Positions 51,142 through 56,635 of a stretch of DNA of 64,000 nucleotides are shown piece after piece (position 1 is the stretch's first letter; every line of letters starts with the position of its first letter). The position numbers and the translations under genes are program-made. Source of the DNA: Nitrosopumilus oxyclinae. GTDB lineage: Archaea > Thermoproteota > Nitrososphaeria > Nitrososphaerales > Nitrosopumilaceae. Location of the stretch: the NCBI RefSeq assembly GCF_013407165.1, contig NZ_CP026994.1, positions 372,001 through 436,000 of the forward strand, in the 5' to 3' direction. The notes beneath the pieces are model-generated. The model worked only from the letters and a program-made list of their open reading frames with translations, ran no database searches and was not told where the DNA came from.

Positions 51142-51249
51142 TTACTTGTTTACAACTTCTGGTTCATGAAGTAATTCATGAAATGTCTTTTCAGCCAATC
51201 CATTCACTGTTTCAATAAACCCTCTTGGACAATATTCGCATTGAATCAT
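51142..51249 (-). CDS. 35-residue zinc-finger-like peptide under operator control
   Basis: Encodes MIQCEYCPRGFIETVNGLAE, then KTFHELLHEPEVVNK. One CxxC (CEYC) and a later HxxxH (HELLH) make a C2H2-like zinc finger. The ATG directly abuts a perfect palindrome, and a TATTAATA box lies 27 bases upstream on the minus strand. These features support a real, regulated gene. Confidence 0.6.
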   Translation of the reverse strand: MIQCEYCPRGFIETVNGLAEKTFHELLHEPEVVNK

Positions 51250-51274
51250 ATAGTACGGTATGGTACCGTACTAT
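51250..51274 (-). promoter_or_regulatory. Perfect palindromic operator
   Basis: ATAGTACGGTA and TACCGTACTAT are exact inverted 11-bp arms around TGG. The element fills the space between the TATA box and the start codon of the minus-strand peptide gene, a position from which a bound repressor would block transcription. Confidence 0.75.
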
Positions 51275-51305
51275 TAATAGTAAGGTGATTGCAAAATAAC
51301 CAATT

Positions 51306-51395
51306 ATGCAGTCAGATACCCCAGGTCATATCTCTTCATTTAATTCAGATGACCTAATCATCACTCTGCACATGAATTATGTTGTTTGGGCATAA
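51306..51395 (+). CDS. Possible 29-residue peptide
   Basis: Encodes MQSDTPGHISSFNSDDLIIT, then LHMNYVVWA. It is divergent from the zinc-finger peptide, and a symmetric TATTAATA (51272-51279) lies about 30 bases before its ATG. Short, so chance is possible. The remaining 100 bases before the antiporter gene hold only its promoter. Confidence 0.35.
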   Translation: MQSDTPGHISSFNSDDLIITLHMNYVVWA

Positions 51396-55924: not shown

Positions 55925-55977
55925 AATAAAAAAAGAAAAAAGATGTAGATGAATTACTGTACAGTAAATTCATCTAC
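55925..55977 (-). terminator. Long hairpin spanning a stop codon, with T-tract
   Basis: GTAGATGAATTACTGT and ACAGTAAATTCATCTAC form 16 pairs with a single bulged base and no loop. The stop codon of the exported protein gene is inside. On the minus strand it is followed by TCTTTTTTCTTTTTTTATT. Confidence 0.7.
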
Positions 55978-56586
55978 GAACTTTTCATAATCATTTGTTG
56001 ATGGGTCTACTGCTTCAACATTTACTAATCCACTCTGAATCAATGGCATGTGTATGCCGTTTTGTGCTGAATGAATTTTTGCTGCTGTAAAGGCCATCAC
56101 AAATGTTCCTTGCTCATCATATACTGGTGTATAATGTCCTCTTAGAATAATTCTAAAGGATTCACCTGAATCTAATGTGCCAGTACCATGAAGTTTGATT
56201 TTACCATTGATTGCTTTACCTTTTAATTCTAATTTTGCATGGCGGTCTGCTGCAGAAATCTCTGCATCAGATGAAACTCTCCATACGCCATTATCATTAC
56301 GTACTGCTTTTCCATCAATAGCAATTTTTGCTTCATGTGCTTGACCTGCTATAATTGCCCAGCCACTTGTAGTTCCATCAAATTGAACTTGTGGTCTAAC
56401 TACAGTGTCTACAGGACGTTCTGCTGCTACACTTGTGGAAATGCTAGCATCTGCAGATACTCCTGCTACATTTGTAGTTGTAGCAACGTTACTGTCTGCA
56501 TCTATGGCTAATGCCATAGGTGAGAAAGCAACTGCCATTATTGCAACTAGTGCAATCATAGCGGGTAACGTTTGTTTTGTTTTCAT
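55954..56586 (-). CDS. Exported protein of unknown function
   Basis: A 210-residue protein with a clear signal peptide (LPAMIALVAIMAVAFSPMALA, trimmed near residue 27), a Ser/Thr/Ala-rich low-complexity stretch, then a beta-rich domain (GWAIIAGQAHEAKIAIDGKA; HAKLELKGKAINGKIKLHGT). No membrane anchor at the C-terminus, so it is likely released or surface-bound. ATG 56586 preferred over TTG 56592. A GTAAC-N3-GTTAC site lies about 50 bases upstream. Confidence 0.65.
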   Translation of the reverse strand: MKTKQTLPAMIALVAIMAVAFSPMALAIDADSNVATTTNVAGVSADASISTSVAAERPVDTVVRPQVQFDGTTSGWAIIAGQAHEAKIAIDGKAVRNDNGVWRVSSDAEISAADRHAKLELKGKAINGKIKLHGTGTLDSGESFRIILRGHYTPVYDEQGTFVMAFTAAKIHSAQNGIHMPLIQSGLVNVEAVDPSTNDYEKFVDEFTVQ

Positions 56587-56635
56587 TGACAACTAGATGA
56601 GAAATTGAATTTAAAGGCTAGCTAACAATTGTAAC

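Follow-up and report, generated by a model that had tools for sequence, protein, structure and literature searches.

Architecture of the peptide locus

The window analysed here, bases 372001–436000 of the single-contig 1.585-Mb genome of Nitrosopumilus oxyclinae (64,000 nucleotides), contains a minus-strand gene for a 35-residue peptide that is preceded by a perfect palindrome, a TATA box and a conserved noncoding block. These features, together with the promoters elsewhere in the genome that carry the same site, are collected in Table 1.

Table 1 Features of the peptide locus, other features of the window, and promoters carrying the operator in the genome
Feature	Position in window	Strand	Layout or basis
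35-aa peptide, C4-x2-C7-x16-H24-x3-H28 (MIQCEYCPRGFIETVNGLAEKTFHELLHEPEVVNK), presumed leaderless; operator locus 1	51142–51249	−	Homologue search and alignment; site fills TATA–ATG gap
Putative operator, perfect palindrome ATAGTACGGTA-TGG-TACCGTACTAT	51250–51274	.	Conservation in 79 genomes; one of five sites in the genome
TATA box TATTAATA, conserved core ATTAATAG	51272–51279	−	~26 nt upstream of the ATG of the 35-aa gene
Imperfect dyad GGTTAC...GTAATCACC	51284–51301		Between sRNA and TATA box; well conserved
Predicted C/D-box sRNA	51305–51372	−	Boxes, stem and conservation; immediately upstream of the peptide promoter
29-aa frame	51306–51395	+	Antisense to the C/D-box sRNA
Second strong inverted repeat GTAGATGAATTACTGTACAGTAAATTCATCTAC	55945–55977		11-bp arms, 11-nt loop; on the 3′ side of the 212-aa ORF
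212-aa ORF	55954–56592	−	
Locus 2: radA			TTATAAAG, then site, then presumed leaderless ATG
Locus 3: 118-aa winged-helix protein			Site between TATA and ATG
Locus 4: trpEG			TATAAAG, then site directly; trpE GTG start 114–117 nt after site
Locus 4: divergent 62-aa Cys/His protein			Site on upstream side of TATA
Locus 5: 128-aa Cys/His protein			Site between TATATAC and TTG start

The peptide gene occurs as a single copy in 79 of 90 genomes of the same genus, a set that comprises 90 of the 150 nearest genomes. Named records with same-gene matches come from Nitrosopumilus, Nitrosarchaeum and other Nitrosopumilaceae. A profile search for orthologues in other families gave no convincing hit. Alignment of 12 diverse homologues showed no variation at the four prospective ligand residues (C4, C7, H24 and H28). 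No model in Pfam or NCBIfam recognises the peptide, zf-C2H2 included, and its PDB matches to zinc fingers are weak (E 0.18 and worse). Classical C2H2 fingers have 12 residues between the Cys pair and the His pair; the peptide exceeds this with 16. Archaeal and viral single C2H2 proteins, of which AFV1 provides an example, are likewise very small and share the C2H2-type ligand set, but the peptide differs from them in its x16 separation and in matching no Pfam family (PMC3541406). Judged by its homologues, the 35-residue ORF is a real and conserved gene, putatively zinc-finger-like, which bears out the initial annotation of a small zinc-finger-type gene beside the palindrome.

An inverted-repeat search of the window recovered the palindrome with the exact 11-bp arms that had been described, around a 3-nt centre. 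One end adjoins the peptide ATG and the other overlaps the TATA box by 3 bases, so that the palindrome fills the TATA–ATG gap, again as annotated. The TATA-to-ATG spacing is as expected for a leaderless gene, which we presume this to be from the positions of the TATA box and the site. Within the palindrome lies a core dyad, GTACnGTA-N3-TACnGTAC, made of two self-palindromic TACnGTA heptamers with centres 10 bp apart.

The peptide promoter is kept in essentially all 79 genomes with the gene, and ATTAATAGTACGGTAccaTACCGTACTAT-ATG is nearly fixed among them. Across the 79 genomes, mean column identity falls from 0.957 for the operator to 0.92 for the TATA box, 0.82 for the adjoining spacer and 0.67 for the distal spacer, which places the operator well above flanking DNA in relatives. 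Symmetric positions are complementary in 75–79 of the 79 sequences at 10 of the 11 positions; the remaining one corresponds to the heptamer's free centre and is complementary in 57 sequences. Because this centre varies, the motif is written TACnGTA-N3-TACnGTA, and G and C usually flank it.

It had also been suggested that the TATA box, being itself palindromic, could serve a 29-residue frame on the plus strand. This did not hold. The first T of TATTAATA is kept in only ~80% of sequences, so the symmetry of the box is incidental, and a shared bidirectional palindromic TATA is ruled out. The frame begins with ATG, GTG or TTG or has no start codon, depending on the species, and this instability, together with its position antisense to a conserved sRNA, rules it out as a gene. 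On the minus strand the conserved block (mean conservation 0.92) carries, in order, the boxes C GTGATGA, D′ CTGA, C′ ATGAAGA and D CTGA, with a predicted terminal stem GTGCAG/CTGCAT and a fold z-score of −3.3. The C box RTGATGA is present in 78 of 79 loci; the full C/D′/C′/D order was recovered by strict pattern in 43 loci, and the others carry box variants. In Rfam, this strand gives weak matches to several CD-box families, none of which reaches the gathering score. On these features the block is a predicted C/D-box sRNA and not a protein gene, and it lies outside the operator circuit. With the block assigned to an sRNA and the 29-aa frame discarded, a bidirectional palindromic TATA is unnecessary. 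The imperfect dyad at 51284–51301 may represent an additional regulatory element.

Five proposed operator sites in the genome and their conservation in the genus

The genome-wide motif search that the initial annotation had proposed was run with GTACnGTA-N3-TACnGTAC. Allowing at most 1 mismatch, it found five sites in the genome, where the reversed control pattern gave no match; the four copies beyond the peptide gene lie at radA, at trpEG and the divergent 62-aa gene, at the winged-helix gene and at the 128-aa gene. With up to 2 mismatches the same five loci stand out and the extras are chance-level matches, apart from a third, imperfect heptamer picked up at the winged-helix promoter. If trpE is taken as the target at locus 4, the dyad has TATA on one side and the presumed start on the other at all five loci, with the peptide gene as one target among them. 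The 62-aa gene at trpEG departs from this layout, the site being located upstream of its TATA.

Dyad sites occur in 92 of 95 genus genomes, and in 55 of 56 among good assemblies. The radA gene, identified by the NCBIfam RadA equivalog model (502 bits), carries the operator with 1–2 mismatches in 35 of 35 core-genus promoters tallied, compared with 0 of 10 radA promoters examined from other families. At trpE the operator is exact in 22 of the 23 loci with an identified start; at the remaining locus the contig breaks off beside the start. The 128-aa gene has it with 0–1 mismatch in 29 of 29 genus loci. At the winged-helix promoter the site was seen by inspection in 43 of 43 loci, including homologues only 41–64% identical, and within 1 mismatch in 79 of 80 named records, the other record being cut off. 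The likeliest interpretation of these sequences is that together the five loci make up a single compact regulon, retained throughout Nitrosopumilus and in close relatives. We found no publication on the motif or the regulon in open-access papers, and the operator and its control circuit are apparently undescribed.

A long 5′ leader (~95 nt) precedes trpE, with a conserved RTGCCT soon after the operator (L144, ~2100–2200, and orthologues), and leader-level control is possible there.

A candidate winged-helix regulator and its rivals

The AlphaFold model of the 118-aa protein contains a confident winged helix from residue 41 (pLDDT ~90 for residues 41–110). Its best PDB matches are the winged-helix DNA-binding proteins AspA and Sso10a-2, with MarR, HxlR and RosR also among them, and the best Foldseek E value was 1.2e-3. 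In Pfam and NCBIfam the protein falls into no family above cut-off, with sub-threshold hits to HTH_45 and Sso10a only. The gene is limited to the same genome group as the full dyad, and it tends to be absent together with the peptide (odds ratio 14.6, p 0.0005, with no correction for phylogeny).

Autoregulated archaeal winged-helix repressors of the MarR/Sso10a/RosR type bind between TATA and the start site. The arrangement described here would resemble theirs in combining a small winged-helix protein that has its own operator, a palindromic site placed to block polymerase, and leaderless promoters. It differs in that Pfam and NCBIfam leave the 118-aa family unassigned, in its different and apparently undescribed operator, and in targets that include radA and tiny Cys/His proteins.

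We favour, with moderate confidence, a reading in which the palindrome is the repressor operator of a five-locus regulon and the winged-helix protein its autoregulating regulator. If, as we infer, a protein binds the palindrome and a signal releases it, the bound repressor would cover the DNA that separates the TATA box from the presumed start of the leaderless mRNA and would keep RNA polymerase off the start site. The winged-helix protein acting on its own promoter would form a negative feedback loop, and release of the repressor would allow RadA, the small Cys/His proteins and TrpEG to rise together. A repressor is the simplest reading because the site covers the TATA-to-start DNA that polymerase must open, and it is this position that points to repression rather than activation.

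Chance had been called very unlikely when the palindrome was first noticed, and that judgement stands on different grounds from those first given. For perfect 11-bp arms around a 3-nt loop the chance expectation is 0.03 occurrences in 64 kb; it rises to 0.54 once any loop of 0–12 nt is allowed, and the window does hold a second strong inverted repeat; rarity is therefore only moderate evidence and is insufficient as proof of function. It is conservation across 79 genomes, unlike rarity, that is decisive and refutes a chance palindrome. The initial annotation had named loss of the palindrome from sister genomes that retain the peptide as the refuting outcome, and when this was checked the palindrome proved to be kept in the sister genomes. 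Chance is also contradicted by the same spacing at four other promoters, and an RNA hairpin by a position upstream of the presumed leaderless start, hence outside the mRNA, which leaves either account barely credible. That the site instead binds an activator, or some general or architectural factor, and so serves to switch the five genes on, seems to us distinctly improbable. The site just upstream of the TATA box of the 62-aa gene is compatible in position with activation, and in Halobacterium radA1 and other UV-B-induced genes have another motif in common, which precedes TATA (PMC2556686). At the other genes, however, the operator takes up the TATA-to-start region, which RNA polymerase has to open, and a general factor is unlikely because each genome has only five sites.

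A rather unlikely alternative, which deserves fuller consideration, accepts the operator and regulon but assigns regulation to the 128-aa Cys/His protein (MPKAGFKSITVSE...), leaving the winged-helix gene as only a target. The N-terminus of this protein shows a strand-helix-helix sequence pattern reminiscent of the ribbon-helix-helix class, whose members recognise short palindromes spaced roughly one helical turn apart; the TACnGTA heptamer is palindromic and repeats every 10 bp, with its third imperfect copy at the winged-helix promoter. The 128-aa protein is also more widely distributed (17 of 29 genera), its own promoter carries the site in every one of the 29 genus loci, and its orthologues extend to genomes without the winged-helix protein. 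Some of these have a related sequence between TATA and ATG, and the distant orthologues L508 and L512 each reach a shuffle p of ~0.02, but most orthologues from outside the genus show no significant resemblance by the shuffle test. Its site is moreover the weakest of the five, often with 1 mismatch, and Pfam assigns the protein to no DNA-binding family. The predicted model contains helices at 13–25 and 38–52, a low-confidence N-terminal strand and no significant PDB match, and does not confirm a ribbon-helix-helix fold.

The radA promoters of genomes without the winged-helix gene bear on the same choice. In three such genomes (G030, G055 and G066) half-sites (TACCGTAC) lie around the radA TATA box. 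At the radA loci L347, L348 and L349, GTACCGTAC and TATACCGTAC half-sites flank TATA on both sides and replace the full dyad; these three winged-helix-less genomes also lack the peptide. Since the half-sites persist without the winged-helix gene, something else may read them, which favours the 128-aa protein. Four fairly complete genomes (G016, G028, G062 and G083) keep the radA operator with no winged-helix gene detected, possibly as a result of assembly gaps. Gene absence cannot separate the two candidates because both are missing from some incomplete genomes. On the sequences and models available, the winged-helix protein is most likely the regulator, with better odds than the 128-aa protein.

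Known circuits and further copies of the dyad

The haloarchaeal CdrS/CdrL circuit of ribbon-helix-helix proteins is, like the one proposed here, a compact archaeal circuit built on small DNA-binding proteins, although it controls ftsZ2 and not radA (PMC7439475). CdrL joins a ribbon-helix-helix domain to a zinc ribbon (PMC7439475), a pairing that the 128-aa protein may, by analogy, resemble.

Bacterial LexA/SOS offers a second parallel, as it uses a single palindromic operator both for the recombinase gene of the RecA family and for a DNA-binding protein that regulates itself, and in Nitrosopumilus the RecA-family gene radA does carry the operator. In contrast to LexA/SOS, the regulon described here includes trpEG and no repair gene other than radA has the site; searches of Pfam and NCBIfam gave no LexA or peptidase family match in either candidate regulator. 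With no LexA-like protein and only one repair gene among the five loci, this is not a LexA SOS regulon. Archaea have been described as being without a coordinated SOS response (PMC2556686). In Halobacterium a UV-B motif, TTTCACTTTCA, lies upstream of TATA at radA1 and has a proposed role in UV induction (PMC2556686). It resembles the dyad as a promoter motif common to an archaeal radA and a few other genes, but it is not palindromic, sits upstream of TATA and is unlike the Nitrosopumilus dyad in sequence. One could imagine an SOS-like circuit assembled in the Nitrosopumilus group from unrelated parts, in which a non-LexA repressor would act through the shared palindrome on itself, RadA and several tiny Cys/His proteins and be released by DNA damage or replication stress; we consider this unlikely.

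Among the open-access papers searched we found none that defines a transcription regulon in this abundant group of marine ammonia oxidizers. The deeply conserved operator that radA shares with the genes of tiny Cys/His proteins and of a DNA-binding protein that probably regulates itself outlines a small putative circuit that is now testable, and it lets one ask precisely whether homologous recombination has dedicated control in these archaea. For the 35-residue gene, which annotation pipelines may overlook, the operator supplies a regulatory setting.

Exact copies of the dyad were seen in two other settings. On a 4.5-kb contig (G048 contig 25; L166, 2081–2099) the dyad GTACCGTAATTTACGGTAC lies a single base ahead of the ATG of a 339-aa Cys/His-containing protein, possibly an extra target or a mobile element. 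A scan of IMG/VR returned at least 120 exact matches, approximately the chance level for 14 fixed bases in a large collection, and among the matches listed only L263 had a plausible archaeal promoter layout. On this thaumarchaeal-virus-like contig the exact dyad, which may be there by chance, lies between TTATAAG and ATG near the contig end (5511–5529).
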